From a virus, in IMG/VR virus record IMGVR_UViG_3300017963_000468, positions 1 to 38,524 of that record: a DNA stretch of 38,524 nucleotides. The stretch is one strand, 5' to 3'. This document shows positions 2,972 to 38,400 of this stretch, in pieces (positions within the stretch are counted from its first letter, which is position 1; each line of letters begins with the position of its first letter). The translations under genes and the position numbers were made by a program. Under the pieces are notes generated by a model. That model had not been told where the DNA came from. It searched no databases and worked only from the letters and a program-made list of their open reading frames with translations.

Positions 2972-3499
2972 GTGGCGAAGAAGAAGAAAGCGTCCCAGCG
3001 CGGGACGATCGACTGGAAGAAGGCCCGAAGGCTCTACGAGGTCAACGGTCTCAGCTTCACCGAGATCGGCCGGATCCACGGCTGCAACCGGAACACGGTC
3101 TCCCGTAGAGCGAAGGCCGAGGGCTGGGTCGACCGAGCGGAAATCGAGCGCGAAGCGAGCGGCGAGCGCCGAGAGAAACTCGCCCGCGAGTTCATCGAGC
3201 GGGACGGCAAGGCGATCGTCCAGAACCTCTCGCGGAAGCACCAGGCGACGACGCTACTGCTCGACTTCTTTCTCGACATCGCCCAGAAGCTCCAGAAGGG
3301 CGAGATCGTCGGCATCGAGAACCCCGTGGTCACGGCCGGCCAGGCTGCCCTGGGCCTACGGCGCCTCCAGATCGTCGACGATCTACTCGCGGGCCTGAAG
3401 GATGGCAGTTGGCGATCTGACGCCGGCATCGGCCGAGCGGGTGCAGACCCTCACGAGGAGACACTTCAGAGCGCTCTTGAAGCGCTTGGCGACGACTGA
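2972..3499 (+). CDS. terS: Probable terminase small subunit (HTH)
   Basis: A GTG start (VAKKKK...) gives 175 residues. Residues 14-50 form a helix-turn-helix of the type found at the N-terminus of many small terminases: WKKARRLYEVNGLSFTEIG followed by HGCNRNTVSRRAKAEGW. The rest is helical and would form the oligomer core. In packaging, TerS recognises the genome start site and delivers DNA to TerL. Position directly upstream of TerL supports the call. The last 98 bases overlap the TerL frame, so either the TerS tail or the TerL N-terminus is unusual. The small palindromes just upstream are candidate binding sites. Confidence 0.75.
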   Translation: MAKKKKASQRGTIDWKKARRLYEVNGLSFTEIGRIHGCNRNTVSRRAKAEGWVDRAEIEREASGERREKLAREFIERDGKAIVQNLSRKHQATTLLLDFFLDIAQKLQKGEIVGIENPVVTAGQAALGLRRLQIVDDLLAGLKDGSWRSDAGIGRAGADPHEETLQSALEALGDD

Positions 3500-5177
3500 C
3501 CCCGAGATGCGGAAGCGGGTCATCAAGGCCCGCTGCCGCACGGACCGCGAGTTCTTCGCTCGCTTCTTCTTCAAGCAGCGCTTGGAGTACGGCTTCTCGG
3601 ACTTCCACCGGACCGTGTTGAGCGTCCCGAAGGTGGCCTACCGGGACCGGCTGCCGATGACCGGCTGGCGCCGGGCGATCGAGGTGCCCCGCGGCAACGG
3701 GAAGACCACGGTCGCGATCCTGATCGACGTCTGTCACGACGTCGCCTACGAACTGGAAGAGTTCATCGTCATTATCGCGGAGGGCTTCACGCTCTCGAAG
3801 AGCCGCCTCCGCGAGGTGCGCTACCAGATCGAGCGGAACAAGCTCTTCCGCGAGTATTTCGGGGACCTCAAGGGCGACATCTGGCAGGCCGCCGACATCG
3901 AGACGTCGAATGGCGTCCGGATCATGGCCGGCTCGATGGGCGGCCAGACCCGCGGCCTACTCCATCCCGACACGGGCGCCAGGCCGACGAAGGTCTACCT
4001 GGACGACGCGGAGGACTCGCAGGACGTCCAGAACCCCGAGCTGCGCGAGCGCGACCGGCGCATCTTGACGCAGGACATCGAGGGCGCGGCCACCACGGAC
4101 GGCCGCACGAACTACCAGATGACGGGGACGCCCCTCCACCGCGAGGCGCTCCTGCCGAGCCTGGAGCACAACGCCGGCTGGGCCTTCGTCAAGTTCCCCG
4201 CGATCCGCTCCTGGCCGAAGCGGATGGACCTCTGGGAGCGTTGCCGGCAGATCTGGGCCAGCGCGGGCTACCTGGAGACCGACGAGAAGGGCGACCCCTT
4301 CGACCTGGAGGCGGGTCAGGCTCGGGTCGACCTCGCCAAACGCTTCTACCACGCCAACAAGAGGCGGATGGACGAGGGCGTCGATGTCCTCTGGTCCGAT
4401 GGCGAGCCGTTCTTCCAGCTCATGCTCTGGCGCTGGGCGAACGGCGAGGCGGCGTTCTCCAAGGAGAAGATGCTCGTCCCCCGAGATCCGGGGCTGGCGA
4501 CCTTCGAGATGGAGAGCGACGACTACCCCGCACGCGGCGCGATCCGGCACCGCATCAAGGGGAACAAGCTGATCGTCGACGAGCGGGACGGCGGCACCCG
4601 CGAGGTCTTCCTCCACAAGCTCCGCTATGTCTCGTTCCACGATCCCGCCAAGGCCGACCCGACGGCACGCCTCACGCGGCGCCGGCAGATGCTCGGCGAC
4701 TACGCGGCGATCGTGACCATCGGCTTCGAGGACCGACCTGGTGGGGGGTTGGCCGGGCACGTCGTCAACGTGTGGATCGAGCGGCAGCCGCCCTCGGTGC
4801 AGGTCGCGGTCCACTTCGACCTGGCGGAGCGCTGGAAGACCGAGATCTGCGTCCTGGAGACGGACACGCTCGCGCTCCTGAAGGACACCTACCGCAAGGA
4901 GGCGCGGGACCGGAAGGCCGAGGGGCGCTACTACCAGATCCCCCTGCGATCCCTTGACCGGCAGACGACGAACAAGATCGCCCGGGTCGCCTCCATGGAG
5001 CCGGCCGTGGTGAACGCCTGGCTCACGTTCAACGTGGACCTCCCTCCGGTCTACTGGAACCAGATGGTCGACCACCCCACGGCTGACCACGACGACGGGC
5101 CGGATGCGACGGAGGGCGCCTGGCGGTTCGGCGGGCGGAAGCGCGCCGGCCTCCGGATCGTGCGCCTCGCCGCGTAG
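3402..5177 (+). CDS. terL: Terminase large subunit
   Basis: This is the packaging motor ATPase and nuclease, 591 aa. Walker A is VPRGNGKTT (about residues 95-103), Walker B is KVYLDDAED (197-205), and a coupling motif MTGTP lies at 240-244. The C-terminal nuclease region shows SFHDPAKADPTA (D414), VLETDT (E487/D489) and DHDDGPDAT (D564 to D568), which fit the three acidic clusters of TerL nucleases. It would cut concatemeric DNA and pump it into proheads at the portal. The ATG at 3402 gives a 98-base overlap with terS; a later start near 3511 would remove most of it but also the conserved-looking N-terminal helix. Confidence 0.93.
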   Translation: MAVGDLTPASAERVQTLTRRHFRALLKRLATTDPEMRKRVIKARCRTDREFFARFFFKQRLEYGFSDFHRTVLSVPKVAYRDRLPMTGWRRAIEVPRGNGKTTVAILIDVCHDVAYELEEFIVIIAEGFTLSKSRLREVRYQIERNKLFREYFGDLKGDIWQAADIETSNGVRIMAGSMGGQTRGLLHPDTGARPTKVYLDDAEDSQDVQNPELRERDRRILTQDIEGAATTDGRTNYQMTGTPLHREALLPSLEHNAGWAFVKFPAIRSWPKRMDLWERCRQIWASAGYLETDEKGDPFDLEAGQARVDLAKRFYHANKRRMDEGVDVLWSDGEPFFQLMLWRWANGEAAFSKEKMLVPRDPGLATFEMESDDYPARGAIRHRIKGNKLIVDERDGGTREVFLHKLRYVSFHDPAKADPTARLTRRRQMLGDYAAIVTIGFEDRPGGGLAGHVVNVWIERQPPSVQVAVHFDLAERWKTEICVLETDTLALLKDTYRKEARDRKAEGRYYQIPLRSLDRQTTNKIARVASMEPAVVNAWLTFNVDLPPVYWNQMVDHPTADHDDGPDATEGAWRFGGRKRAGLRIVRLAA

Positions 5178-5188
5178 GAGGGCCCTCG

Positions 5189-5380
5189 ATGCGGATGACC
5201 GAGGATCGGAACCCGGCCTTCGTCAACTACGAGCCGCGGCCCGAGTTGAGAAAGAGGCGGCGACGCTCCACGGTGAGGAAGCTGCTGGTGGCAGCCGAAG
5301 AGCTGAGGCTCGCCATGGCCGACATCGCCTGGGGATGGATCGCGCACCTGAAGGATCAGTGGGTGATGCGGTGCTGGTGA
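5189..5380 (+). CDS. Small basic hypothetical protein (63 aa)
   Basis: A GGAGGG ribosome binding site precedes the ATG. The protein is basic in the middle (RKRRRRSTVRK) with a hydrophobic, tryptophan-containing C-terminal helix. It lies between terL and the portal, and its stop overlaps a possible GTG start of the portal gene (GTGA at 5377). Small genes in this place are common in phages, but the family is not recognised. It might simply couple translation into the portal gene. Confidence 0.5.
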   Translation: MRMTEDRNPAFVNYEPRPELRKRRRRSTVRKLLVAAEELRLAMADIAWGWIAHLKDQWVMRCW

Positions 5381-6894
5381 AGATCCTCGACCGGAAGCGG
5401 GCCGACTACCACGAGTCGGCCTGGGAGGAGTACGAGCTGCTCTACGAGGGCGGCCACCGGATCGAGAAGCAGAAGACGCGCTTCTTGCCGCAGCGGCCGG
5501 TCGAGACGACGGACTGGTACAACGTCCGCCTGGCCGACTTCCACTACAAGAACATGGCCGGCGCCGCGATCGACGAGATCGCCGCGGCTACGCTTCAGGC
5601 GCCGATCGAGCTGAACCTGAAGGCGGAGGAGGGCAAGCAGCGACCCGAGCCCGACGGCTTCTACGGCGACGTGCTCTGGCCCGATCCCACCGGGACGGGG
5701 GAGGGCACGTTCCAGGAGTTTCTCTACGAGGCCCTCACGACCGCCATGCAGAAGCGGGAAGCCTGGGCCATGGTCGCCTTCCCGGAGTCGGTGCCCGGTT
5801 TCGAGTGGCAGAGCCGCGGTGAGCAGGAGGCGGCCGGCGAGCTGCGGGCCCAGATCGTGCTCGTGCCTCCGGAGTGCGTCATCAACGTCGGCCGGGACGA
5901 GAAGGGCCTGGCCTCGGTGATGCTCCGGCATCGGATCACGCCAGGCGACCTGCTCCGGGACGAGGAGGCCGCCAAGGACAAGGTCGTCTGGACCTACCTG
6001 ACGCGGACGACGGTCCAGCAGTGGGAGATCGAGATCGAGGCCGGCAAGGAGCCGAAGCCGGACGACGAGGCCACCGCGGTCGACGAGCCGCGAGAGCACC
6101 GGCTAGCCGAGGCCAACGACGGCCGGGGTCAGGTGCCGCTGATCCGCCTGCTGGTCCACCCCTCGCTCTGGGCGATGGACCGCATCGCCTCGCTCTGCAA
6201 GAACGAGCTGAGCAAGAGGAACGGCCTGAGCTGGTACGAGACGCTCTGCTGCTATCCGCAGCCCTACCACAAGGGCGAGACCCGGCTGGCGGACAGCGAG
6301 CCCGGCGAGGAGCAGAAGGCGCAGAAGCGCGGCGCCCAATACTGGTTCGAGTTGGACGAGGAGGGTGAGGTCGGCTACCTGGAGCCGGGCGGAGCAGCGC
6401 TGTCACACCTGAAAGAACGGCTCGACCAGCTCGAACGGGAGATCTACAAGGCGCTCCACAATATGGCGGCGGCCCAAGGTCCCGAGGCGGCGGCCATGAT
6501 GCAGGCGGCAGCCGCGAAGCTCCGCGACGCCGTCGCGAAGATGATCCTCTGCGAGCGCTATGCGAAGTACGTCCGCGACTTCTCGGTGCAGGTGGCCGAC
6601 GCGGTCAGCGCGGCTCGGAACGAGGCCTACTCGTGGGAGGCCAGCGGGGCCGATCGCTTCGACCTGCTCGACTCGACCACGGCCGCGGACGGCGCGCTGA
6701 AGATCCAGGGCATCCCGGACCTCAAGAACTCCCCGACGTTCTGGAGGGCCTTCATCATCAAGACGGCGCTGGCGCTTCTGCCGGACGTCGACGCGAAGAC
6801 GCGGAACGCGATCGTGGACGAGCTGCGCAAGATGCAGGTCGTCGCTCCCAGCGACGCCGAGGATCCCCTGAGCAAGAGGGACGAGGAGGACTAG
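5371..6894 (+). CDS. Portal protein
   Basis: A large protein of about 507 aa directly after TerL, before scaffold and coat, is in the standard portal position. The N-terminal part has the look of a portal clip/wing: helices around DYHESAWEEYELLYEGG, then FHYKNMAGAAIDEI. A mixed core follows (PLIRLLVHPSLWAMDRIASL), with long C-terminal helices (LKERLDQLEREIYKAL, MMQAAAAKLRDAVAKM). Portals form the dodecameric DNA channel at one capsid vertex. The start is uncertain: GTG at 5371 or 5377 is preferred because the longer frame overlaps terL. No catalytic motif is expected. Confidence 0.8.
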   Translation: MLVKILDRKRADYHESAWEEYELLYEGGHRIEKQKTRFLPQRPVETTDWYNVRLADFHYKNMAGAAIDEIAAATLQAPIELNLKAEEGKQRPEPDGFYGDVLWPDPTGTGEGTFQEFLYEALTTAMQKREAWAMVAFPESVPGFEWQSRGEQEAAGELRAQIVLVPPECVINVGRDEKGLASVMLRHRITPGDLLRDEEAAKDKVVWTYLTRTTVQQWEIEIEAGKEPKPDDEATAVDEPREHRLAEANDGRGQVPLIRLLVHPSLWAMDRIASLCKNELSKRNGLSWYETLCCYPQPYHKGETRLADSEPGEEQKAQKRGAQYWFELDEEGEVGYLEPGGAALSHLKERLDQLEREIYKALHNMAAAQGPEAAAMMQAAAAKLRDAVAKMILCERYAKYVRDFSVQVADAVSAARNEAYSWEASGADRFDLLDSTTAADGALKIQGIPDLKNSPTFWRAFIIKTALALLPDVDAKTRNAIVDELRKMQVVAPSDAEDPLSKRDEED

Positions 6895-8795: not shown

Positions 8796-9698
8796 ATGGC
8801 CGAGGGTATCATCACTGGCGCGAACAACGCCAGCGCCATCGCGACGGTCGTGGCAGCCAAGACGCTCCCTCCGCTCCGTGCGGAGACGTGCGCCTGGGGC
8901 ATCGCGACCATGGACTACGAGGACGAGGTTCGTCAGTTCGGGAGCCAGGTGGACATCCCGATCCCGGCCGAGTTCACCACGAACCTCATGGCCGACGGTG
9001 GGACCGTGACGCGCCAGGCGAACAACCTGGGCAACGCCTCGCTGGCCCTCAACCGGCACCGCGAGCTGACGTGGGAGCACACCGACGTCAACAAGGCCTA
9101 CGCGAGCCCGAACCTGGAGAACTGCTCCGCGGGCCAGGCCATCGCGAACTTCGCCGAGGACATGGACGAGGACCTGCTCTCGGTCTACGCCTCCTTCACC
9201 GGCACGGCGGTCGGCGCCTACAATACGGCGCTCACCGAGGCGGTGATCGACGCAGCCGAGACGGGGCTCTTCGACCAGCGCGTTCCCGGCAGGGACCGGA
9301 AGAGCCTGGTCGTGACGGGCACGGGCTACTCGAACCTGCGGCTGATCCCCCGCTTCACGGAGGCCGACAAGCGCGGCAGCGGTGACGCTGCGGCGGCTCG
9401 GCTGATGGGTCAGCTCAAGGGCTTCGACGTCTACCGCGCGCAGAAGTGCAACGTGACGTCGAGCACGAACCGCCACGGTCTGGCGCTGGGTCCGGCGGCT
9501 CTGCTGGGCGCCGTTCGCAACCTGGGCACGGACGGGAACGGCCTGGGTGTCGTTCAGGTCGAGATGCAGGAGGACGGGGTCACGATCCGGATGACCATGT
9601 CCTACGACCACCCGGTTCTCGGGCGCATGACGACCATCGACACGCTCTACGGCTACGTCTGTGGCCGGACTCTCCACGGGATCGAGGTGAAGCACTAG
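8796..9698 (+). CDS. Major capsid (coat) protein, P22-like
   Basis: 300 aa with a strong AAGGAGAAGG ribosome binding site, as expected for the most abundant virion protein. The pattern fits the P22-type coat family with the HK97 fold: an early VDIPIPAEFTT segment, an alpha/beta body with DQRVPGRDRKSLVVTG, and a C-terminal VTIRMTMSYDHPVLGRMTTI followed by DTLYGYVCGRTLHGIEV. No cleavable N-terminal delta domain is evident, which agrees with the separate scaffold gene upstream. A strong terminator-like hairpin follows the gene. Confidence 0.87.
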   Translation: MAEGIITGANNASAIATVVAAKTLPPLRAETCAWGIATMDYEDEVRQFGSQVDIPIPAEFTTNLMADGGTVTRQANNLGNASLALNRHRELTWEHTDVNKAYASPNLENCSAGQAIANFAEDMDEDLLSVYASFTGTAVGAYNTALTEAVIDAAETGLFDQRVPGRDRKSLVVTGTGYSNLRLIPRFTEADKRGSGDAAAARLMGQLKGFDVYRAQKCNVTSSTNRHGLALGPAALLGAVRNLGTDGNGLGVVQVEMQEDGVTIRMTMSYDHPVLGRMTTIDTLYGYVCGRTLHGIEVKH

Positions 9699-16500: not shown

Positions 16501-18054
16501 ATGGCTGGAGTCTCCACCATCCGCCGCACGAACAACGCCGCCGAGTACATGAGCGTCGACGGTGTCGTCATCGACGAGCGCAAGCCGCCGAGCGCGATCG
16601 TCGCGAAGCCGCAGAACCGGGTGTGCGTGATCGGCGAGTTCCAGAAGGGCCCGGTGGACGTCGTCACGCGCATCGGATCGCCGCGCGAGCTTTACGACAA
16701 GTTCGGAGGCGCGGGGCCTGACGCGAGCGGCAACTTCTACAAGGGCTACCTCTCCCTGGCCCGCAAGCAGTTCGGCCGGCTCTACGTCATCCGCCTCTCG
16801 AACTCGACGCAGGCCACGGCCACGGTGGACCTCGACGACTCGACCGTGCCGACGGCCGTGCTCCGGATCAACGCCGAGTCGCCCGGCGTTTGGGGCAACA
16901 GCCTCACGGTGACCGTGTCGGTTGCCTCGGACGGCATCGCCACGCATTTCAACCTGACGGTGAAGTACGACGGCGAGACGGTGGAGGTCCACCGTAACCT
17001 GAACCTGGCCGACGTGAACGATGGCGAGGACCTCACGCCCGAGTCGCTCTACATCCGGGCGGAGCGCCTCGCGATCGGCGACGGCCGGCCCGTGGACATC
17101 GCCGACGAGGCGCTCACCTCCGGCCTGGACGGCACGTTCGCCGACGCTGACTACACGGGCAGCGGTTCGGACAGCCGCGGGATTCAGCTCCTCTACGGCT
17201 CCAGCCACAGCGACATCAAGTGGGTCTTCGTGGCCGAGAGCTACGCCGCCGCGGTCAACGGTGCGCTCCTCAACCTCTCGGCGACCACGAAGACGAAGAA
17301 CTGCCTCATCATGGGCGACCCTTCGAACGACGTCGCCGCGGCGCTGACCGACGTCGCCAGCTACCGCAACGACCGCATCGGCTATTGCTACCCGCACGCC
17401 CAGATCTACCTGGCCGAGGCCAACAGCGGCCGGGGCGGCCTGGTCCAGGTCGGCCTCAACTCCTTCGCTGCCTCCGTGCTCGCGGGGCTGCCTCCGGGCT
17501 CGAACCCGGCCGGGGTCAACGGCGAGGAGTTCCTCACCGGCATCCGTGCGCTCACGAACCAGAACCTCGGGACCGCGGACTTCGAGAGCTTCCGCGAGAA
17601 GGGGATCATGGGCTTCCAGTTCACGATGGAGCGCAACAAGTTCTCGATCCGGTCGGGGATCAACACCGACCTCGATCCCGCGCTCCACAACTGGGCGCGG
17701 CGGAGTATGGCGGACTACCTCCAGGACAACGCCGCGGCCTACCTGGCGTTCTTGCAGGGCAAGCCCATCAGCTCGAAGAACAAGGTCATGGCGCAGGCCG
17801 CCATCGAGCGCTTCCTCGACCAGCAGATCCGGCTGGAGCATATCCCGAGCAAGCGGGATCTGAACGAGAACCGGCCCGAGGACGATCCGGTCCTGGAGCC
17901 CTATGAGATCGACATCGCCTCGCTCAACAGCCAGGCCCAGGAGGCGGAGGGCGTCTTCATCATTCTCGCTCGGGTCCGCACCTTCGCGACGATGGACTTC
18001 ATCGTTCTCCGCACCGAGATCGGCGAGCGGGTCGAGGTCGAGGCCACGGCCTAG
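16501..18054 (+). CDS. Contractile tail sheath protein
   Basis: 517 aa with a GGGAGGGAG ribosome binding site. The N-terminus (VSTIRRT, KPQNRVCVIGEFQKGPVDVVTRIGSP) matches the usual sheath start, where the protein makes its first strand and a 'G.a.kGP.n.....s' signature. The middle is a large insertion domain. The C-terminal domain (about 401-517) contains IPSKRDLNE, LEPYEIDIASL and MDFIVLRTEIG, the conserved part that holds sheath subunits together. The sheath contracts to drive the tube through the envelope. A fragment of this C-terminal domain is duplicated in the small leader-bearing gene at 13343. Confidence 0.9.
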   Translation: MAGVSTIRRTNNAAEYMSVDGVVIDERKPPSAIVAKPQNRVCVIGEFQKGPVDVVTRIGSPRELYDKFGGAGPDASGNFYKGYLSLARKQFGRLYVIRLSNSTQATATVDLDDSTVPTAVLRINAESPGVWGNSLTVTVSVASDGIATHFNLTVKYDGETVEVHRNLNLADVNDGEDLTPESLYIRAERLAIGDGRPVDIADEALTSGLDGTFADADYTGSGSDSRGIQLLYGSSHSDIKWVFVAESYAAAVNGALLNLSATTKTKNCLIMGDPSNDVAAALTDVASYRNDRIGYCYPHAQIYLAEANSGRGGLVQVGLNSFAASVLAGLPPGSNPAGVNGEEFLTGIRALTNQNLGTADFESFREKGIMGFQFTMERNKFSIRSGINTDLDPALHNWARRSMADYLQDNAAAYLAFLQGKPISSKNKVMAQAAIERFLDQQIRLEHIPSKRDLNENRPEDDPVLEPYEIDIASLNSQAQEAEGVFIILARVRTFATMDFIVLRTEIGERVEVEATA

Positions 18055-28781: not shown

Positions 28782-28791
28782 GGGGTGATCC

Positions 28792-29085
28792 ATGCGGAAC
28801 GGGCTCCCGCTCTGGGCCGCGACGCTGATCTTGACGCTGCTCTTCGGCGTCCTGGGCTGGAACGTGCGGGGTATCGCCTCCGACGTGAGGGCGAACACGG
28901 TGGACCGGCTCCAGCGTGAGGGCGCCCAGCAGACGCAGACGATTGTCTGGCTGGAGAACGCCGTGCGCGGGATCCACCACGAGCAGGTGAAGGACCGCGA
29001 GCTGCTGAATCGCATCGCGCGCGAGCTGAAGGTCGAGGAAGGCCCGGTCGTCGAGCCGCTGCCGCCCAAGGACCCCCCGAACTGA
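28792..29085 (+). CDS. Small membrane protein with coiled coil (spanin/holin-like)
   Basis: 97 aa. Residues 7-24 form one membrane helix (LWAATLILTLLFGVLGW), followed by a charged helical region (DRLQREGAQQTQTIVWLENA, then EQVKDRELLNRIARELK) and a proline-rich end. One N-terminal membrane helix plus a periplasmic coil is the layout of inner-membrane spanins such as Rz, and it precedes a gene with a lipobox. It might also be another small membrane protein. Assignment is by topology only. Confidence 0.6.
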   Translation: MRNGLPLWAATLILTLLFGVLGWNVRGIASDVRANTVDRLQREGAQQTQTIVWLENAVRGIHHEQVKDRELLNRIARELKVEEGPVVEPLPPKDPPN

Positions 29086-29091
29086 TCTTTA

Positions 29092-29130
29092 CGCGGTGAC
29101 TCGTGCCGTTGGGGCGCGAGATCCACCGCG
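29092..29130 (+). other. Long imperfect hairpin before holin/lipoprotein gene
   Basis: CGCGGTG (29092-29098) pairs with CACCGCG (29124-29130), with inner pairing CTCG/CGAG and GCC/GGC. It fills most of the 62-base gap before the next gene. No T-tract follows, so it may control translation or mRNA processing between the two membrane genes. Confidence 0.45.
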
Positions 29131-29147
29131 CCTAGAAGGAGAACCCC

Positions 29148-29915
29148 ATGCCCCAGCAGGAGAAGTGGATCGGCCGGAGCCGCAGATGGCAGGCCGCGAT
29201 CATCAGCATCCTCAGCGCCCTCGTCGGTGTCGGCCTGAACCAGGAGGTCATCGAGCCCGTCAGGGCCCTATGCGAGGCGATCACAGGGGAGAACGGCCTC
29301 CTGGTCGTCGGCTTCCAGTTCTACGCCGCCCTCACGCTCGCCTGGTCCTACTTCCGGCCCGACAACGCGAAGGTCAAGGTGTTGCCGCCGAAGCCGCCCG
29401 AGGGCGCGGCCCTGCTCTTCATGCTTGCGATCGGCGGTTCTGCCCTTCTGCTCTCGGGCTGCCGCTCGACGAGCACGATCACCTACATCCCGGCGGACAA
29501 GACCCAGCCCACGGTCACCATCGACCAGGGCGCGGGCGGACGTAATTGCATCGCCACCCGCATCGACCCGAAGACCGGCGAGATCGACTTCGTCATCGAC
29601 CAGGCCGGCGAGAGCGACTGGGGTGGCTGGGGCGCCCTGACGAAGGTCTTGCCCGATTTGGTCAAGGCCGCCACGGCCTTCCTGGCCCAGAATCCGGCCC
29701 CGCTCGGCCAACTCAGCGACGGCGTGCTCAGGCCGCCGGCCGGCTACTCGGGCTGCCTGGCGATCTTCGATACCTACGACGGCGAGGCCGATCTGGAGTT
29801 GGAGGAGGCTCCCGAGGTCCTGGTCCTGCCGCCCTCGATGCCGGCCGACGAGCGCGAGGCGCTGCGCGAGATGATCGAGGCCTTCGGAGGCGAAGCGGCC
29901 GACACGGTCGAGTAG
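29148..29915 (+). CDS. Two-TM holin-like N-terminus joined to lipobox protein
   Basis: 255 aa with an AGAAGGAG ribosome binding site. Residues 15-30 and 51-68 are hydrophobic helices, a small-holin-like layout. Residues 87-105 form a third hydrophobic stretch ending LLLSGC, a clear lipobox (LSGC, C105), followed by a soluble domain with DKTQPTVTIDQGAGG and an acidic tail. An internal ATG at 29421 (Met92) would make a free lipoprotein of about 164 aa, so one frame may yield a membrane protein and a lipoprotein such as an outer spanin. No peptidase motif is seen. Confidence 0.65.
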   Translation: MPQQEKWIGRSRRWQAAIISILSALVGVGLNQEVIEPVRALCEAITGENGLLVVGFQFYAALTLAWSYFRPDNAKVKVLPPKPPEGAALLFMLAIGGSALLLSGCRSTSTITYIPADKTQPTVTIDQGAGGRNCIATRIDPKTGEIDFVIDQAGESDWGGWGALTKVLPDLVKAATAFLAQNPAPLGQLSDGVLRPPAGYSGCLAIFDTYDGEADLELEEAPEVLVLPPSMPADEREALREMIEAFGGEAADTVE

Positions 29916-29942
29916 CCGGCGCAGCCGGCGGGAGGGAGTGCC

Positions 29943-30836
29943 ATGCGCGCGCTAGTCCTCTCGGGCGGGGGTGTGGACGGCGTCTTCGGTCACGGCGGCG
30001 CCCTCCACGCGCTCGGCCGCACGTTCCACAAGCCGCCCAGCAACGTCTTCCAGCGGATCTCCGGGGCCTCCGCGGGCGCTACCGCGGCGACCTACACGGC
30101 GGTCCGTCGGGAGCACCGCATCTTGGAGCTGGCGGAGACGATCCGGCCCGAGGACCTCTTCGCGTCGGATCGCCCGGCCCGCGCGCTGCGCCGGGCCAAG
30201 CGGGTTCACGACAGGGCGGCGCTGCTCAACCCGAAGGGTCTGCGAAAGCTCATGGTCGAGGAGTTCCCGGACCGCTGGCTCTCACAGATCCCGGCCGGCC
30301 AGCTCGTGATCCCGACCTGCGATCTGCGGACGCAGCAGATGGTCGAGTGGCGTCCCGAAGAGGTGCCGCCGGCCGTCTTCCGGCGTGCGCTCCTGGCCTC
30401 GATGTCGATCCCGATCGTCTTTCCGGCCGTCGAGATCTCGCACGGCGGGGTCCGCTACGAACTGGTCGACGGTGGCACGACGCATAACCACCCCGTCGAC
30501 CTGGTGCTCCCGGACCTCGCGGAGGCCAAGCGGCGGGGCGAGCCCGTCGAGATGGTTGTGATCTCCGCGCTCCAGCCGCCCGTGGAGTCGGACCTTCCGG
30601 AGAGCGGGCCTTCTCGCGTTATGGCCGTGATCCAGCGGGTCGCCTCGGCCGTGATGCACGAACTGGGGAACCTGCGGCGCGAGGAGGCCGAGGAGATGGA
30701 GATCCCGCAGCACTGGATCCAGATCGACTCGCCCGACCTCGACCTCGAAAACTTCACGTATATCGACGCCCTCGCCGCCTACCAGGCGGGCTTCGAGGCC
30801 GTCGAGAGTCACTTCAAACGGAGGCCTGCGAAATGA
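29943..30836 (+). CDS. Patatin-like phospholipase
   Basis: 297 aa. The patatin hallmarks are all visible: a glycine-rich oxyanion loop LSGGGVDGVFGHGGA (residues 6-20), the nucleophile motif GASAG (S43) and the catalytic aspartate in LVDGG (D176). The usual Arg/Lys of GGGxRG is replaced (GGGVDG), so activity must be tested. Patatins hydrolyse acyl chains of membrane lipids. No signal peptide or membrane segment is seen, so it would act from the cytoplasm. It lies between the lysis-type genes and the secreted genes, and its stop overlaps the next start (ATGA). A role in lysis or envelope remodelling is likely but not proven. Confidence 0.85.
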   Translation: MRALVLSGGGVDGVFGHGGALHALGRTFHKPPSNVFQRISGASAGATAATYTAVRREHRILELAETIRPEDLFASDRPARALRRAKRVHDRAALLNPKGLRKLMVEEFPDRWLSQIPAGQLVIPTCDLRTQQMVEWRPEEVPPAVFRRALLASMSIPIVFPAVEISHGGVRYELVDGGTTHNHPVDLVLPDLAEAKRRGEPVEMVVISALQPPVESDLPESGPSRVMAVIQRVASAVMHELGNLRREEAEEMEIPQHWIQIDSPDLDLENFTYIDALAAYQAGFEAVESHFKRRPAK

Positions 30837-32173
30837 ACCGACTTGTCGCCACTCTCCTTTGTCTCTTCCTGGCCTTCCTGACGCTGCCCGTGACCGCCGA
30901 GGAGGTCGTGGTGCCGCTCGGAGACATCGGCGACGTGACCGGTCCGTCGTCGAGCGTTGACGAGAACGTGCTGGTCTTCGACGGGACGTCTGGGAAACTC
31001 GTCAAAGACTCCGGATATGGCCCAACCGCCGATGATGTGACCGACGACAACGTAGAGTCGATGCAGACGGCGGGGTCGGATGGAACGGCGCCGGTCGCGG
31101 ACAGCGGCAGCCTCGTGATGACGGACATCGCTACGGAATCCGAGCTGGCTGCGATGTTTGCCGCCAACGTCCCCCAGGACGCGGTGAGCACCTGGGCCTC
31201 GTGGCTGGGTAGCATCGGATACGTTACCACGGATTATCAGGCGGCCAGCGATGCCGTGTGCGCCGAGAACAGCGGCTTAACCGAATCTGGAGATCCCTTC
31301 GACGAGTGGGTGTTGCTCGATTCTACTTTCGACAACGCCTACGACTGCGACGGCGATACGACCGACGACGATGCCGTCGGGTTCTGCTGGGCACCTGGTG
31401 GATACGACACGTACGATCCTGTGTTCCACAACTCGTCGATCATCGTAGACGCCTTGATGCATTTCAACGCTTGGCTGTGGCACTCGTCGCCTGACTCTGG
31501 GGACGTCGTGGCCTCGGTCCCAATGCTCAAGACGGCGGTTCGGCATTGCACGTGCCCCGGCGGCACCTGCGAGCAGGGAGAGACCTGCACGCTCTCGACG
31601 CCCAACGTGACCGAAGCGGCTGGACGTGCTGTCTATCGCCGGATCGATCAGTCCTATCTTATAGGCGGTACGCGGTACGGTTTCAGCCTGCCTTACCCGA
31701 TGACCTTCAAGATAAAGCCGGGTGACTGTGTCATGTTGACGGTCACCGAGTACGGAACCGATACCGCTGGCGTTTCCGATCCGCCGTACGACCCGGATCA
31801 GTTCGGCATGGAGACTTACCTGGCGCTGACCGTCGCCGAGATTGGCGCTCGGTCCGACAAGCCGTTCCTGTGTCCGTTCTCTGACAGCGGAACCGTGTCC
31901 ACGCGCTGCATGGACAACGGCGTCGTGCTTATGAACGCGACGGGTTCTCGCACGCTCACGTTGCTGGAGACGCCGGACGACCCCGTTCCCTGGTGTCTGA
32001 CGATCGTCAACCAGGCAGGAGCTTCGCTCACGGTGACCCCACATTCCAACGACACAATCGAGGGTGAAACGCAGGGGTCGTCGATCTCCAACGGCACGCA
32101 GTACGACAAGATCCAGCTCTGCAACAACGTCGATGACTTCTGGTCGATCATGGGAAAGACGGGCACATGGTGA
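30833..32173 (+). CDS. Secreted fibre-like cysteine-rich protein
   Basis: 446 aa, starting in an ATGA overlap with the patatin gene. Residues 1-22 are a Sec signal peptide (LVATLLCLFLAFLTLPVTA-E). The mature N-terminus reads GDIGDVTGPSSSVDENVLVF then DGTSGKLVKDSGY, a phrase typical of phage tail fibres. The C-terminus (SISNGTQYDKIQLCNNVDDF, ending WSIMGKTGTW) also has the common fibre ending. In between is a cysteine-rich part (CTCPGGTCEQGETC). So it looks like a fibre protein with an export signal. The base composition looks less GC-rich than the flanks, which suggests recent acquisition. Confidence 0.65.
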   Translation: MNRLVATLLCLFLAFLTLPVTAEEVVVPLGDIGDVTGPSSSVDENVLVFDGTSGKLVKDSGYGPTADDVTDDNVESMQTAGSDGTAPVADSGSLVMTDIATESELAAMFAANVPQDAVSTWASWLGSIGYVTTDYQAASDAVCAENSGLTESGDPFDEWVLLDSTFDNAYDCDGDTTDDDAVGFCWAPGGYDTYDPVFHNSSIIVDALMHFNAWLWHSSPDSGDVVASVPMLKTAVRHCTCPGGTCEQGETCTLSTPNVTEAAGRAVYRRIDQSYLIGGTRYGFSLPYPMTFKIKPGDCVMLTVTEYGTDTAGVSDPPYDPDQFGMETYLALTVAEIGARSDKPFLCPFSDSGTVSTRCMDNGVVLMNATGSRTLTLLETPDDPVPWCLTIVNQAGASLTVTPHSNDTIEGETQGSSISNGTQYDKIQLCNNVDDFWSIMGKTGTW

Positions 32174-34050
32174 GGTTGCTCGCGCTGCTCACACCGCTGC
32201 TGGTGGGGATATTCTTCAGCGTGGGGGAGCACCCCTCGGAGCCGAAGTTCTTTCTCAAGGAGATGCTCTTCGTCCCACACCAGACGAAGGCGATGGTGCG
32301 GGTGATCCCGCAAACCACCGCGACGATGCGGGTTCGCTACGGCACGGCGCGTAACGCTATGACGAGCTTCGCGCCTAGCTCCAGCGGAACGAGTGTCACC
32401 GCCGATACGCCTGGAGAGTTCACGCTGACTACCGGGCTCGCGGCCGACACGACGTACTACTACCAATTGGAGATCCTTGAGGACGGGGACTGGAAGGGAC
32501 GCGGGGTACACGAGCACCGGACGCTCCCGAGTGCGACGACGGCGGTGTACGACTTCGCGATAACGGCGGACACGCATTTCTGGCCCCCGTTCAGCAGCTC
32601 GATGTTGGGGCTGGATTGCTCAACGCGACAGGATTTCGCGTACCAGCATACTTGGAAGTACGCACACGGGCGCTTTGCACTCTCGGCGATGCGCGACGTC
32701 GCGGGTTTGGATCCGTTGTTTCACCTCGATTTGGGTGACGGTTTGATCGGTTGTCAGTCGGGCATGGCTAACGATTGCCCAACGTTGTGGCCCGACGGAG
32801 GAACTGGGGATGGTAGCACCGGTTCCACGGCCACCTCGGAAACAGAGGAACGTCAGTTCTGCGAGCGGCGACTGCGCTCTTCGCTGGAGTGGATCACATT
32901 CCACAAGGCGGACGTCCCGGTGGTGCTCATCGAGGGAAACCACGACGGTCACCCGCGATACGGCAGCCTCAGCGGTGGAACGGTGGGACATTACAACGGC
33001 GGCTCCACCGGTCAGGCAAAGCGGATGTTCTACACCTCGTGGGACGCGACGGAGAAGTACACGGGCAACGCAAACCAGTCCGGGTGGTACCCGAATACGG
33101 GCTGCACTCCGAGCTGCACGGAGCAAGAAGGTCACTACTATGCCTTTCAAGCTGGTTCGGCGCTCTTCATAAAGCTCACGCCGTTCGAGCACACGCCGCC
33201 CGGCTGGGGGGGGGATCTGGACGGCGACACGGTGTCGGCCGAGGATCCTGACGACTTCTTTCCGAGGACGGCGGACCAGTGGAGCTACGGGGACGAGCAG
33301 CTCTCGTGGCTTCTCAACCTACTAGATACCACGTCGGCGAAGTGGGTCTTTCTCGTGGAGCACTCGTTTCCCGGTGCGCCGTCTCCCGAGAACGCGCACG
33401 GGAACTACCACTACAGCAAGTTCGGTCTCGGGGTGGAACGATACTGCGTCGATGAGCCCGGAACGCTGTGCGAGTGCCACGCTGGCGAGCAATGTGGAGG
33501 GACCCCCTGGACACCACATCAGTGCTCAACCGGGCTGTGCGAAGATCCCGATCCTACCGCGCCGTGGCGGGGACCGGCGCAGGCTGTACTAGTCGCAGCA
33601 AAGGCAGCCGCGGTAGGGAACGGCGGGGCGGTTTTCGTGCTACTCGGACACGATCATTTCACGTTCAGCGCCCAGTACCAAGATTCCAGCGGTGCGCAGC
33701 CGGTATTTTTCATCACACATAGTAGTACATCCATCGACCAATCGAGCACCAACGACCCTGAGGGCTGTTACAAGAGTCAGCACATCGCGCCGCTGTTCGG
33801 GTCCCCGCCCGCGCTACCGATGGCGGCAGATCCGATCTGGGGCGAGCCCGTGAGCAAGGCCGGGCTCGGTCACTACGCTCGCGGCTGGTTCAAGTGGACG
33901 GTGAACGGGGAGACGAACGTGACGATGCGTTTCTATGGGCTGCGCGTGCTGTCGTCAGATCACGCTCAGTATGCGCACCCGTACAGGTTTCATGGGAAGC
34001 AGTTGATGTGCATCAACTACACGAACGCAGGGCAGGCGGTCTGCCCGTGA
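32167..34050 (+). CDS. Secreted purple-acid-phosphatase-like metallophosphoesterase
   Basis: 627 aa, overlapping the upstream gene by 7 bases. A short hydrophobic N-terminus (LLALLTPLLVGIFFSVG) is a signal peptide or anchor. Residues about 35-120 look like a fibronectin-III/PAP N-terminal domain. The metal-site motifs of calcineurin-like phosphoesterases then occur in order: ITADTHFW (D135, H137), LDLGDG (D188, D191), EGNHDG (N258, H259, D260), VEHS (H399) and GHDH (H495, H497). A cysteine-rich insert (CECHAGEQCGGTPWTPHQC) lies near 435-453. It would act outside the cytoplasm on phosphoesters; the substrate is unknown. Confidence 0.8.
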   Translation: MVRLLALLTPLLVGIFFSVGEHPSEPKFFLKEMLFVPHQTKAMVRVIPQTTATMRVRYGTARNAMTSFAPSSSGTSVTADTPGEFTLTTGLAADTTYYYQLEILEDGDWKGRGVHEHRTLPSATTAVYDFAITADTHFWPPFSSSMLGLDCSTRQDFAYQHTWKYAHGRFALSAMRDVAGLDPLFHLDLGDGLIGCQSGMANDCPTLWPDGGTGDGSTGSTATSETEERQFCERRLRSSLEWITFHKADVPVVLIEGNHDGHPRYGSLSGGTVGHYNGGSTGQAKRMFYTSWDATEKYTGNANQSGWYPNTGCTPSCTEQEGHYYAFQAGSALFIKLTPFEHTPPGWGGDLDGDTVSAEDPDDFFPRTADQWSYGDEQLSWLLNLLDTTSAKWVFLVEHSFPGAPSPENAHGNYHYSKFGLGVERYCVDEPGTLCECHAGEQCGGTPWTPHQCSTGLCEDPDPTAPWRGPAQAVLVAAKAAAVGNGGAVFVLLGHDHFTFSAQYQDSSGAQPVFFITHSSTSIDQSSTNDPEGCYKSQHIAPLFGSPPALPMAADPIWGEPVSKAGLGHYARGWFKWTVNGETNVTMRFYGLRVLSSDHAQYAHPYRFHGKQLMCINYTNAGQAVCP

Positions 34051-34172
34051 AGGGAGGCAGCTAGCCCCTAAAGTCGGCGCGCGACCCGGGGACGGCCGGA
34101 CCGGGATGGAAGACTTCAGCGAGGTCTCCGCGGGCTGGGGAACGGAGCACTTCCACCAGCACGCGGTCCGCG

Positions 34173-34195
34173 CCCCCCGCAAAAAAAGGGGGGGG
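34173..34195 (+). promoter_or_regulatory. C6 / A7 / G8 tract hairpin over ribosome binding site
   Basis: CCCCCC, GC, seven A and eight G lie in a row just before the ATG at 34205. The C and G tracts can pair around the A loop and so hide the G-rich ribosome binding site. Homopolymer tracts of this length can slip, giving phase variation or sequencing error. The rest of the 154-base gap from 34051 holds no confident gene. Confidence 0.55.
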
Positions 34196-34204
34196 ACTGA
34201 CACG

Positions 34205-36388
34205 ATGGTAAGACTTTCCACGTTTGCAGCGCTCCTCGCGACGACCCTGCTTTTCGCTGCGTCTCCGGCGGTCGCCCAGGAGACGATCACCGCGTCCATC
34301 AGCACGTCGCGCACCAGCGGGGTCGCTCCGCTAGCCGTGTTCTTCGATGCCTCGGGAACCACCCACAGCGATGGCTCCGTTCGTCCCTTCCACCACCTCT
34401 ACTACGAGTGGGACTTCGACGACGACGAGGCCGGAACCTGGGCCACGTCGGGCAAGAACAAGAACGAGGCCATCGGGCCCGTGGCCGCCCATGTGTTCGA
34501 CAGCCCCGGGACCTACACCGTCAACCTGGACGTCAAGGATGCGGAGGGCGTCACAGACAACGGGAACACGGTGGAGATCACGGTCTCCGATCCCGACACG
34601 GTGTTCTCTGGGACCAGCACGGTCTGTTTCTCCAACGACACGTCCTTCACGGGATGCCCCAGCGGGGCGACCGAGGTCTCCAACACGAGCGACCTGTCGG
34701 ACCTCAACTCCTACATAGGTAGCGGAAAGCGCCTCCTTCTCAACCGGGGGGATACGTGGACGACCGGGAGCGTGAACGTCGACGACTACGACGTCGGCCT
34801 GGTCGGGGCGTTCGGGTCTGGAGCCAAGCCCATTCTCTCTCTGTCCAAGTCCGACAAGTGGGAGTATGCGTTCAGGGTCGAGGAGGCGACAGACTGGCGG
34901 ATCATGGACCTGGACGTTCGCATGACCTCCCAGTATGTCGGGATTGCCGTCCGCCTGACCTGCAACGCCAGCCTGGATCCCGCGGAGAACATTCTGGTCT
35001 ACAGGGTCGACTCCACAGAAGCCTTCGGCATGGTTTACGGTCAATGCCACGAGAACACCGCAGAGAAGCTCTTCATCGTCGAGGGCAGCAGTGACGACGA
35101 AGACACCCTGGGGTACGTGAACGGAATCACGGCGGCCATCATGGGAGTCGACGGAAGCAACACCGCGACCGACGACTCCCACCTGTTCCGCACCTCGTAC
35201 TGGTCGCCGGGCGTGATCCAGCACAACGACTTCGGCACTCCGGCAGATGCCAACGATCACATCCTGAAGATTCACGCCACCGCGGCCGGCTCTTGTACCG
35301 TTTGCGGCCTATGGAACGAAAAGATCGTCGTGTCGGATAACGTCTTCTCGTGCCTGTCGACAGACGTCACCGCGTGCAACGTGGCCGTGGGCCCACAGAG
35401 TTCCGGGTACGACGAGCGCATCAGGGACGTGATCTTTGAAAGGAACTACTGGGACGACATCCGCGGGAACGCGCTGACGGTGTGGGCTACCAAGGTGACC
35501 ACCAGGAACAACATCTTCAAGGGCCAGGCCTCCGACCACGGCAGCAGGGTCTTCGTGGACCTGGACGGGAAGCGCGGATCAAACCCAGACATCACCATCG
35601 AGTACCTAGAGGTGTTCAACAATGTGTGTTACGACCCTGACGAGGCGGTAACCTGCATCGCCATTGACACGAGCGACGTGTCCACCGGGGAGGCAAGAAA
35701 CAACCTGCTGCATACTCCGTCAGGAGGAACCCTGGTCAGCGGTTGCGGTGCTGGGTGTACCAGCAGCGACAACTACTCTGCCGGGTCGAATCCGTTCGTG
35801 GAGGCGAGTCCGTCTGCCGACGAGGATTATCAGATTGATCCCGAGGGCGCCCTCGCCGAATATATCATCGACGACGGCTACTCTGTCGATGCGGTGCTAG
35901 AGGACTACGCCGGGGCTTCCAGGCCGAAGGGGTCCAGCCACGACATCGGTGCCTACGAGTGCTCGCCCACCGAGTGCGCCCTGTGCGGCAACCAGGACGG
36001 TGACGGGGTTCTCGACACGGAGGACAACTGCCTCGACGACTCCAACGCCTCCCAGACGGACACCGACAGCGATGGCTTCGGAAACGCCTGCGACGCGGAC
36101 TGGGATGGCGATGGCGCCGTCGGCGTCGGGGACTTCGTATTGCTCAGCATCGCACACGGGTGCGAGGACGGGACGATCGGCAAGTGCTCCGGCACAGGTA
36201 CGCTCTGCACGCTCGACTCCGACAACTGCGAGACCGGCACCTGCCAGCCCTGCTACGACGCGGAGGTCGACAAGGACGACGATGGCGCGGTCGGCGTCGG
36301 GGAGTACGTCCTCTACAGCCAGCAGTACGGAGAAGAAATCTGCGAGCTGGGTCTCACCTGCGAGCAGCCGGCGTTCTGCAACGAGTAG
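34205..36388 (+). CDS. Secreted beta-helix protein with PKD, TSP3 and dockerin-like repeats
   Basis: The ATG at 34205 (not the in-frame one at 34106) gives 727 aa with a Sec signal peptide (FAALLATTLLFAASPAVA-Q). Residues about 27-125 are a PKD-type domain (APLAVFFDASGT, then YYEWDFDDD, HVFDSPGTYTVNLDVKD). About 150-590 has short strand repeats of a right-handed beta-helix (VFSCLSTDVTACNVAVG, IFERNYWDDIRGNALTVW). The end has a thrombospondin-3 calcium repeat (DGDGVLDTEDNCLDD, TDSDGFGNACD) and two dockerin-like loops (WDGDGAVGVGDFVLL, DKDDDGAVGVGEYVLY). Beta-helices often cleave polysaccharide. No catalytic residues can be named. Confidence 0.75.
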   Translation: MVRLSTFAALLATTLLFAASPAVAQETITASISTSRTSGVAPLAVFFDASGTTHSDGSVRPFHHLYYEWDFDDDEAGTWATSGKNKNEAIGPVAAHVFDSPGTYTVNLDVKDAEGVTDNGNTVEITVSDPDTVFSGTSTVCFSNDTSFTGCPSGATEVSNTSDLSDLNSYIGSGKRLLLNRGDTWTTGSVNVDDYDVGLVGAFGSGAKPILSLSKSDKWEYAFRVEEATDWRIMDLDVRMTSQYVGIAVRLTCNASLDPAENILVYRVDSTEAFGMVYGQCHENTAEKLFIVEGSSDDEDTLGYVNGITAAIMGVDGSNTATDDSHLFRTSYWSPGVIQHNDFGTPADANDHILKIHATAAGSCTVCGLWNEKIVVSDNVFSCLSTDVTACNVAVGPQSSGYDERIRDVIFERNYWDDIRGNALTVWATKVTTRNNIFKGQASDHGSRVFVDLDGKRGSNPDITIEYLEVFNNVCYDPDEAVTCIAIDTSDVSTGEARNNLLHTPSGGTLVSGCGAGCTSSDNYSAGSNPFVEASPSADEDYQIDPEGALAEYIIDDGYSVDAVLEDYAGASRPKGSSHDIGAYECSPTECALCGNQDGDGVLDTEDNCLDDSNASQTDTDSDGFGNACDADWDGDGAVGVGDFVLLSIAHGCEDGTIGKCSGTGTLCTLDSDNCETGTCQPCYDAEVDKDDDGAVGVGEYVLYSQQYGEEICELGLTCEQPAFCNE

Positions 36389-36415: not shown

Positions 36416-37111
36416 CTACCCGGGCCGACGGCGCGGCGCGGCCAGGGTGAAGACGACGAAGCCGACAGCCATCAGCGCCGCAGCGCCCGGCTCGGGGATT
36501 ACCGCGTTGGGCGGCGGCGGCGGGAGCGGCTCCGTCGTGACGGTGAGCGTGCCCAACTCTCCCGAGTCGACGTTGACGTAGGCGCCCCCGATGACCGCGG
36601 CGAAACCGTCCGCAGGGGCGAGGAACGCGGAGATCGTTTCGGCGCCCTCGGCGATGGCCGACGTGTCCCAGATGATCGTGCCGATGTTGTAGGTGCCGGT
36701 CAGCATTTGCTCGGGCAGGGTGCCGGACGACGGGGTGACGCAGCCGAATCCCCTGACCCCAAGGCTCCCGAGGTCCGCGGGGTTGACCGCGGGCGAGCAG
36801 CAGCGGATCGCCTCGCCCGCCATGTTGAAATCGACGCCGACCCCGCGCCAGTTGTCGATGCCCGCAACCGCCAGCCCGTTGTCGTAGTCGTAGGCGACGC
36901 TCACGCCGAAGCCGACCAGGTCGTAGGTCGAGCGGAGGACGATGTCCATCGTCCGCGAGCCGCCGCCCGCAGGGTCGCCAGGGTCGATCGTGAGCGTCTG
37001 GGCCGTCGTATCCCGGAAGACGAGATCGACGGTGATCGCCGCCTGGGCCGGAAGGCCGGCGGCCAGCACGAGGAGCACCGGGGCCAGGAACGTCGCAAGA
37101 GAAGCACGCAT
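36416..37111 (-). CDS. PEP-CTERM sorted secreted protein
   Basis: 231 aa with a GGGAGG ribosome binding site. Residues 1-25 are a Sec signal peptide (LATFLAPVLLVLAAGLPAQA-A). The C-terminus is a PEP-CTERM signal: VIPEPGAAALMAVGFVVF, then an arginine-rich tail (APRRRPG). Such signals are cut by exosortase in diderm bacteria that make exopolysaccharide. The mature part is beta-rich (cohesin-like pattern LVFRDTTAQTLTIDPGDPA and FGVSVAYDYDNGLAVAG). It has its own promoter and runs against the late operon, converging with only 27 bases between stops. It looks like a cargo (moron) gene. Confidence 0.83.
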   Translation of the reverse strand: MRASLATFLAPVLLVLAAGLPAQAAITVDLVFRDTTAQTLTIDPGDPAGGGSRTMDIVLRSTYDLVGFGVSVAYDYDNGLAVAGIDNWRGVGVDFNMAGEAIRCCSPAVNPADLGSLGVRGFGCVTPSSGTLPEQMLTGTYNIGTIIWDTSAIAEGAETISAFLAPADGFAAVIGGAYVNVDSGELGTLTVTTEPLPPPPPNAVIPEPGAAALMAVGFVVFTLAAPRRRPG

Positions 37112-37141
37112 GGTCTACCTCCCGCCTCTCGCCCCGCGGAG

Positions 37142-37170
37142 ATCATGCGCCTACTCGCGCCCCCTGTCCA
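37142..37170 (-). promoter_or_regulatory. Sigma-70-type promoter of the PEP-CTERM gene
   Basis: On the minus strand TGGACA (37170-37165) and CATGAT (37147-37142) are separated by exactly 17 bases, matching TTGACA at five and TATAAT at four of six positions. The start codon is 31 bases after the -10 box, with GGGAGG in between. This is the best promoter seen in the window and gives the gene independent expression. Confidence 0.6.
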
Positions 37171-37217: not shown

Positions 37218-37664
37218 TTAAGAGAGCCTCCGGTCCAACTCGGCGTTGCCGGCCACCGACTCCAGGGCGAGAGTGAGCAGCGCGCGGGCCACGGTGTCGG
37301 CCAGTCGGTCGTCTCCCTTCAGACCGAGGGCGTCGTTCACGACCCGGGCCGGCCGCTTCGGGAAGGGCTGCGGCTGCGGGAGCTTCACCAGCGCCTCCCG
37401 GACCCGCTTCTTCGTCCACTCTTCATCGAAGAGCAGGAAGTCCAGGGCCGCGGTCCAGCCCGCGTGCCGTTGCTCGATCATCGCGGAGACGTAGCTGGCC
37501 TGGCTGTAGCCCTCGCCGTCTCCAGCTTGCTCGGCCACGGTCTTCGCGCTCTTCTTCATCGACCAGTTCACGCGGACGGTCTGGGCTCCGCCGGGCCATC
37601 TGGGGCTCACGGGGTCCTCCCTGGGGGGGGGCGTGGCCTGATCTTGCATCACCGCCTCGGACAT
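37218..37664 (-). CDS. Hypothetical phage protein (148 aa)
   Basis: The N-terminus is Pro-rich and likely disordered; a helical core follows (YSQASYVSAMIEQRHAGWTA, DEEWTKKRVREALVKL). No domain is recognised. It lies downstream of the zinc-binding gene in the same direction with a 44-base gap, so it is probably in the same minus-strand operon. The PEP-CTERM gene that follows has its own promoter. The function is unknown. Confidence 0.6.
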   Translation of the reverse strand: MSEAVMQDQATPPPREDPVSPRWPGGAQTVRVNWSMKKSAKTVAEQAGDGEGYSQASYVSAMIEQRHAGWTAALDFLLFDEEWTKKRVREALVKLPQPQPFPKRPARVVNDALGLKGDDRLADTVARALLTLALESVAGNAELDRRLS

Positions 37665-37708
37665 CTCAAGTTCCTCCCTCTGCGGGCCCTTCCTGGGCCT
37701 CTGCCGGG

Positions 37709-38164
37709 CTACCGCCCTCTTTCGGGGGCGAGGCCATCCTGCCGGCCCGAGATCTCTTCTCCTGTGTGATTATACAGCGCCTCTTCTGCACCCACAACGA
37801 TCGCGTCTCGGGCGCTGAAATCGAACCGCCCCTGGCGCTCGCTCACGGTCCGGCGCTTTCGCCCTTCAGAGCGGCTCCTGCGCGTCCTGGGGGCCCTTCT
37901 CCGCGCGAGCCACGCCTGCCTCTCTGCTTCCAGCTTCTCGGCCAGGGCGCCCTTCTTGGCGTTCTTCAACTCGGAGACGTCGCAGCCTTCCCCCTCCAGC
38001 CACTCGACGAAGCGATCCTGGGTCTCGTGGACCTTCTCGATCAGCGTGCCGTCCCGGCCGCAGCCGTGGTAGCGCCCTCCGCAGACGCAGCGGCAGGTCG
38101 AGAAGCGGGCGTAGTGACAGCTCGCGTTGCAGACGCGGTCGCCCGACTTGATTAGGGTCGTCAT
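37709..38164 (-). CDS. Cysteine-rich zinc-binding phage protein (151 aa)
   Basis: Residues 7-36 are a compact Cys/His cluster: GDRVCNASCHYARFSTCRC, then VCGGRYHGCG. This pattern recurs in small proteins of many phages and mobile elements and probably binds zinc. The middle helix is long and charged (GALAEKLEAERQAWLARRR), then strongly basic (RTRRSRSEGRKRRT), so nucleic acid binding is possible. The start overlaps the stop of the upstream gene (ATGA). No enzymatic motif is seen. Confidence 0.7.
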   Translation of the reverse strand: MTTLIKSGDRVCNASCHYARFSTCRCVCGGRYHGCGRDGTLIEKVHETQDRFVEWLEGEGCDVSELKNAKKGALAEKLEAERQAWLARRRAPRTRRSRSEGRKRRTVSERQGRFDFSARDAIVVGAEEALYNHTGEEISGRQDGLAPERGR

Positions 38165-38400
38165 CGAGGATCGTCCCCCTCGACGCGCACGGCGCTCCCC
38201 CCGGCCGTTTCGGGCGGTGTTGCATCTGCTCCGATGTCGATCAACTCGAAGGCCGTGATCTCCCGCTCCCCCAACTCGTGCGTGCGGATGAAGCGCTGCC
38301 CGGGGAGGATCGCGCTGGCCCCGTGGAGGGACCTCTCGATCGTGGAGTCGACCCAGGCGTCGTCGCCGATAACCTCGATCAGCCGGTAGGCGATCTTCAT
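38161..38400 (-). CDS. Small hypothetical protein (79 aa)
   Basis: The protein has an N-terminal strand-helix-like part (MKIAYRLIEVIGDDAWVDST) and an acidic, flexible C-terminus. Both ends overlap neighbours by ATGA on the minus strand, which supports the frame. A CTCAGGAAGGAG ribosome binding site precedes the ATG. The family is not recognised. Confidence 0.6.
   Translation of the reverse strand: MKIAYRLIEVIGDDAWVDSTIERSLHGASAILPGQRFIRTHELGEREITAFELIDIGADATPPETAGGSAVRVEGDDPR

Follow-up and report, generated by a model that had tools for sequence, protein, structure and literature searches.

The window analysed here, a stretch of 38,524 nucleotides, is an IMG/VR viral record. Its right end contains a reverse-strand gene that lies between the last gene of a phage late operon and a set of small reverse-strand genes (Table 1). 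The G+C content of this gene at the three codon positions (0.67/0.54/0.91) shows the same signature as that of the terminase, head and sheath genes, and the open reading frame is therefore a real coding gene.

Table 1. Positions of the features discussed, in coordinates of the window.
Feature	Position	Strand	Remarks
Terminase large subunit	3402..5177	+	phage identity
Portal protein	5104..6894	+
Major head protein	8796..9698	+
Tail sheath	16501..18054	+	contractile tail
Signal-peptide protein	30833..32173	+	no family
Metallophosphoesterase-like protein	32167..34050	+	weak match; signal peptide
Last late gene	34205..36388	+	convergent neighbour, ending 27 nt from the PEP-CTERM-type gene; signal peptide, PKD, choice-of-anchor Q, TSP3/dockerin-like repeats
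PEP-CTERM-type protein gene	36416..37111	-	231 aa, ATG start
Leader with ribosome binding site	37112..37130	-	GGGAGG shortly before the ATG
Sigma-70-like promoter	37142..37170	-	TGGACA-17-CATGAT; TGGACA at 37170, CATGAT ends at 37142; 30 nt before the ATG
Upstream neighbour	37218..37664	-	148 aa, without a clear family; separated from the PEP-CTERM-type gene by 106 nt
Two small genes	37709..38400	-	4-nt overlap, operon-like; probably early region

The encoded protein is composed of a signal peptide (residues 1-24), an orphan ectodomain (residues 25 to about 195), a PPPPP linker, and a terminal segment containing IPEPG, a hydrophobic helix and an RRR cluster. In a rule-based test its N-terminus was recognized as a Sec signal peptide (MRASLATFLAPVLLVLAAGLPAQA before the cleavage point and AITVD after it), as is characteristic of the PEP-CTERM class. 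The C-terminus ends in ...PPPPPNAVIPEPGAAALMAVGFVVFTLAAPRRRPG, and the tail reads IPEPG-AAALMAVGFVVFTLAAP-RRR-PG, so that the Pro-Glu-Pro motif, helix and basic cluster of PEP-CTERM are all present and only two residues follow RRR. Bacteria employ this type of tail to direct proteins into the slime layer outside the cell. The motif itself is IPEPGAAA, not VPEPGT. PEP-CTERM proteins are defined by their tail, a signal peptide and the absence of other homology (PMC1569441). The sequence-only reading had proposed a PEP-CTERM-type protein gene at this position, and coding signature, signal peptide and tail agree on its presence.

No convincing relatives of the ectodomain were seen in 2.9 million viral contigs, in genome contigs, among phages and plasmids, or in about 1,130 sampled genomes from three phyla. 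The ectodomain belongs to no family in Pfam, NCBIfam or PHROGs, and nothing was found among PDB sequences. Two single-sequence structure predictions did not give a reliable fold (pLDDT 38-41). A cohesin-like ectodomain facing the dockerin-like repeats of the convergent neighbour was suspected and then abandoned, as no match supported it and both structure predictions were unreliable.

The gene had been described as encoding a host-type protein located in phage DNA, in reverse direction where the late operon ends. For a host-type envelope protein this description is supported: phage genes are present on its left and it converges with the last late gene. Another contig, IMGVR_UViG_3300017971_000466, is 99.995% identical to positions 1-21471 of the window and continues for a further 19.6 kb on the upstream side. 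The additional region encodes a tyrosine integrase, an SSB, a PD-(D/E)XK nuclease, an AAA/SMC-like protein and a small HTH protein, and most of its genes are on the minus strand. Because of the integrase and the HTH protein, the data suggest a temperate phage; family searches did not identify a repressor. At the right end of the window, the genes in 37218-38400 are likewise oriented leftward, and two of them overlap. In a circular or permuted genome, the PEP-CTERM gene would probably be the last one on this leftward early strand and face the late operon head-on, an arrangement inferred across a gap between the contigs for which no bridging contig was found at the right end of the window. No exosortase gene (PF09721) was found in either of the two contigs, and hence the host would have to supply the exosortase. 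The relatives of the terminase were considered as a guide to this host; the matching loci, in genomes of Gemmata, Pandoraea and Victivallales, show only 24-27% identity, which is too distant. Among phage records, the terminase (3402-5177; L026:2304-3860) is nearest to the D3112 group, which consists of Mu-like phages, at 26% identity; the phage that encodes it also has a tyrosine integrase and a contractile sheath.

Among the late genes tested, clear signal peptides cluster at the right end, in the genes starting at 28107, 30833, 32167 and 34205, followed by the PEP-CTERM gene. The ORF of the last of these late genes opens at 34106, and its signal peptide starts at 34205. The late genes with signal peptides (28107-36388, plus strand) differ from the preceding virion genes and give the impression of a gene block for adsorption proteins or secreted cargo. 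Within the late operon, a patatin-like phospholipase gene (29943-30836, plus strand; Pfam E 6e-21) overlaps the next gene by 4 nt, and in 34205-36388, which encodes TSP3/dockerin-like calcium repeats, a 36-nt unit is duplicated at 36103 and 36274. The genes in 30833-36388 have a lower G+C content and GC3, as would fit a later acquisition; in this respect the PEP-CTERM gene differs from them.

The sequence-only reading had further claimed an independent promoter and a good ribosome binding site. Both motifs are located exactly as claimed, and an own promoter, judged from the sequence motif, is plausible. The putative promoter matches the consensus at 9 of 12 positions, though this consensus need not hold for the host of the phage. 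One promoter-like site was found in 5.5 kb, against 0.2 expected in shuffled sequences, and this site falls inside the 106-nt gap preceding the PEP-CTERM gene. Upstream of the gene no RpoN promoter was detected, and terminator-like sites occurred at chance level only.

A search of viral databases for PEP-CTERM proteins had been advised as a check. We screened IMG/VR viral contigs with two exact DNA patterns for VPEPGT...RRR, so that two choices of codons and a single form of the motif were covered. The 71 stretches that matched gave 32 proteins with a signal peptide and a PEP-CTERM tail. Given this coverage, the number should not be read as a census, nor, as several of the proteins are near-identical, as a tally of independent phages; some of the contigs may be proviruses with host flanks. 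All ten of the viral proteins tested passed PF07589. Several of the genes are located among terminase, portal or head-tail genes. The L078 gene (10222-10896) is on a contig with terminase, head, portal and tail protein genes, the L076 gene (8437-9111) starts 13 nt after a head-tail adaptor gene, those of L085 (11755-12417) and L055 (12226-12942) lie near terminase and portal/adaptor genes, and that of L054 (6859-8238) near terminase and portal genes; the L095 gene is near a head protease gene and the L096 gene near a spanin gene. Their position beside or inside head-tail operons in L078, L076, L054, L085 and L055 suggests late expression in those phages; in some phages the gene lies within the virion operon itself, which points to late and not to lysogenic expression there. 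Promoter motifs similar to that of the window gene are found upstream of just a few of the remaining viral PEP-CTERM genes. A convergent position as a general rule for such genes was also considered and not retained, the outcome being mixed and based on crude gene calling (background 42 of 266 genes).

The viral PEP-CTERM proteins form recurring families, mostly of 220-310 aa, for example L093/L103/L108/L091/L095/L046/L055, L078/L076/L073 and L051/L089/L048. Members of the first of these families share 38-99% identity and two invariant cysteines, and an HNH endonuclease gene lies beside three of them. For one viral family, 300 genomes of the order of Pandoraea gave only partial, tail-side matches, and none of four viral PEP-CTERM proteins tested had a relative among 50,697 phage records. 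Some match PepA beyond the tail (L078, residues 80-221, 42 bits, which is below the family cut-off of 80). The ectodomain of the window protein has no detectable homology with any of the viral PEP-CTERM proteins found. Among the open-access papers searched, where matches were mostly judged by title and abstract, we found no report of phage-encoded PEP-CTERM proteins. The weight of the finding comes from the recurrence of this class in other phages, rather than from the orphan in the window alone.

The viral tails found by DNA pattern, none of them chosen with the window protein, were used to build a tail profile. This profile scores the window protein at 19.1 bits (E 1.3e-4), whereas the next ORF among about 2,670 control ORFs reaches 6.4 bits, and 500 shuffles of the window tail score at most 4.3 bits. 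An earlier version of the profile, which included tails found with the window protein and is therefore partly circular, gave 24.4 bits. A whole-protein search of 790 genomes retrieves true PEP-CTERM proteins through the tail, several other weak matches being due to chance; the best genome match is a 217-aa planctomycete PEP-CTERM protein ending in PPPPPSTAVPEP...RRRRA (51% over 42 aa). In NCBIfam, five PEP-CTERM families match the window protein, in the tail only and all below their cut-offs (best XDP1, E 0.0018). A tblastn search of phages with the consensus tail gave no match, possibly due to masking of the tail as low complexity. The curated models do not score the protein as PEP-CTERM: Pfam PF07589 does not match it at E up to 1, nor in a search restricted to its own record, and TIGR02595 is not among its matches at E up to 5, where HMMER filters may hide it. 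If these results and the departure of IPEPGAAA from VPEPGT are given most weight, the protein could be a tail-anchored inner-membrane protein, with the IPEP-helix-RRR segment acting as a membrane anchor only that is not read by an exosortase. We regard this as unlikely given the score with the independent tail profile, the PEP-CTERM matches in bacterial genomes, and the linker-PEP-helix-RRR layout at the extreme C-terminus, which is the same as in PEP-CTERM; moreover, the protein has a signal peptide, as do nearly all PEP-CTERM proteins (PMC1569441). The window protein is predicted, from its sequence, to be exosortase-sorted.

A different possibility is that the gene comes from the host chromosome, either because a misassembly fused it to phage DNA or because it belongs to a prophage flank. 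The region from 21.5 to 38.5 kb, including position 36.4 kb, is covered by no second contig, and the G+C content is 61-64% across approximately 30.5-36 kb and 68-70% beyond, but the latter value is also that of the phage core. Furthermore, the codon usage of the gene fits the structural and early phage sets about equally well, and better than the low-G+C block, and there is no repeat at the junction. Clearly chromosomal flank genes, against which the sequence-only reading had warned, were not seen. The flanking genes are small, overlapping, reverse-strand genes without matches to chromosomal or other families, and their codon usage is near that of the phage early and structural genes. The gene has phage genes at its left, while those at its right are phage-like by layout and codon usage only. 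As unrelated contigs also carry PEP-CTERM genes among phage genes, we consider a host origin through misassembly or a flank very unlikely. More credible, though still doubtful, is that the same surface protein is not encoded by an independent moron, and that its gene is either the last one of a leftward early operon or is expressed lytically and aids virion exit from biofilms or flocs. The leftward orientation of the right-end genes and of most early genes of the overlapping contig is consistent with the former. As to the latter, in L076, and by synteny also in L078, the PEP-CTERM gene comes 13 nt after a head-tail adaptor gene, and in L054 it overlaps the gene that stands before it in the head operon. 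The window gene, in contrast, is reversed relative to the late operon and therefore not transcribed with it, and the promoter-like site and ribosome binding site directly before it, in the 106-nt gap, argue for a transcription unit of its own.

Phage morons, or lysogenic conversion genes, alter the host envelope; they sit between transcription units, have a promoter and a terminator of their own, differ in composition from the phage core and encode an envelope-directed product. The window gene shares with them its place between transcription units, a promoter-like site of its own and an envelope-directed product. It differs in that its product would take the exosortase route and in that its composition is like that of the phage core (GC3 0.91, codon usage like that of core genes). 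The viral PEP-CTERM families of IMG/VR are likewise phage-borne and combine a signal peptide with PEP-CTERM, but their ectodomains are unrelated to that of the window protein. The substrates of the PEP-CTERM/exosortase (EpsH) system resemble the window protein in having a signal peptide, an ectodomain without homologues and, at the very C-terminal end, a PEP motif, helix and basic cluster (Haft 2006, PMC1569441); the window protein differs from them in being phage-encoded instead of chromosomal, in having a tail below the Pfam cut-off and in that neither contig yielded an exosortase. The flocculation protein PepA (NF033554; A. tertiaricarbonis PepA, PMC9850573) is comparable in size and carries similar export signals, but the window protein does not match NF033554 and is not placed in the PepA floc family. 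The chromosomal pepA of A. tertiaricarbonis has an RpoN promoter, in contrast to the sigma-70-like site of the window gene; overexpression of PepA keeps exopolysaccharide cell-bound in this species and, in an rpoN1 mutant, restores flocs but neither biofilm nor swarming (PMC9850573).

On balance, we favour the view that the window encodes a phage PEP-CTERM envelope protein with its own promoter, which is processed by the host exosortase and alters the surface of the infected cell or lysogen. Judged from its sequence, the protein is most likely of the host-surface, lysogenic conversion type, and to read its gene as a host-surface moron is plausible and supported in part. The gene would be transcribed in the host from its own promoter, possibly in lysogens, and the protein would cross the inner membrane by Sec, with removal of the signal peptide. 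The C-terminal helix would hold it in the membrane with the RRR cluster in the cytoplasm, and a host exosortase would then recognize the PEP motif and deliver the ectodomain to the cell surface or the extracellular polymer. There, the ectodomain may alter the surface of the lysogen or infected cell, for instance by keeping exopolysaccharide attached to the cell or by hiding the phage receptor; an effect on biofilm is a guess.

We tentatively extend this to a broader idea, which we hold as possible rather than probable: that phages of exosortase-bearing bacteria widely carry PEP-CTERM families of their own and use the host exosortase to remodel the matrix of the infected cell, with the window gene as an independent orphan example. 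Such genes recur in uncultured phages beside those for heads and tails, so that the host-sorting idea can be tested. If it is true, phage PEP-CTERM genes would mark their hosts as exosortase-bearing diderms, and matrix remodelling could serve the exclusion of rival phages, the aggregation of lysogens or the release of virions. Phage genes that use host protein sorting would then link infection directly to floc and biofilm formation.
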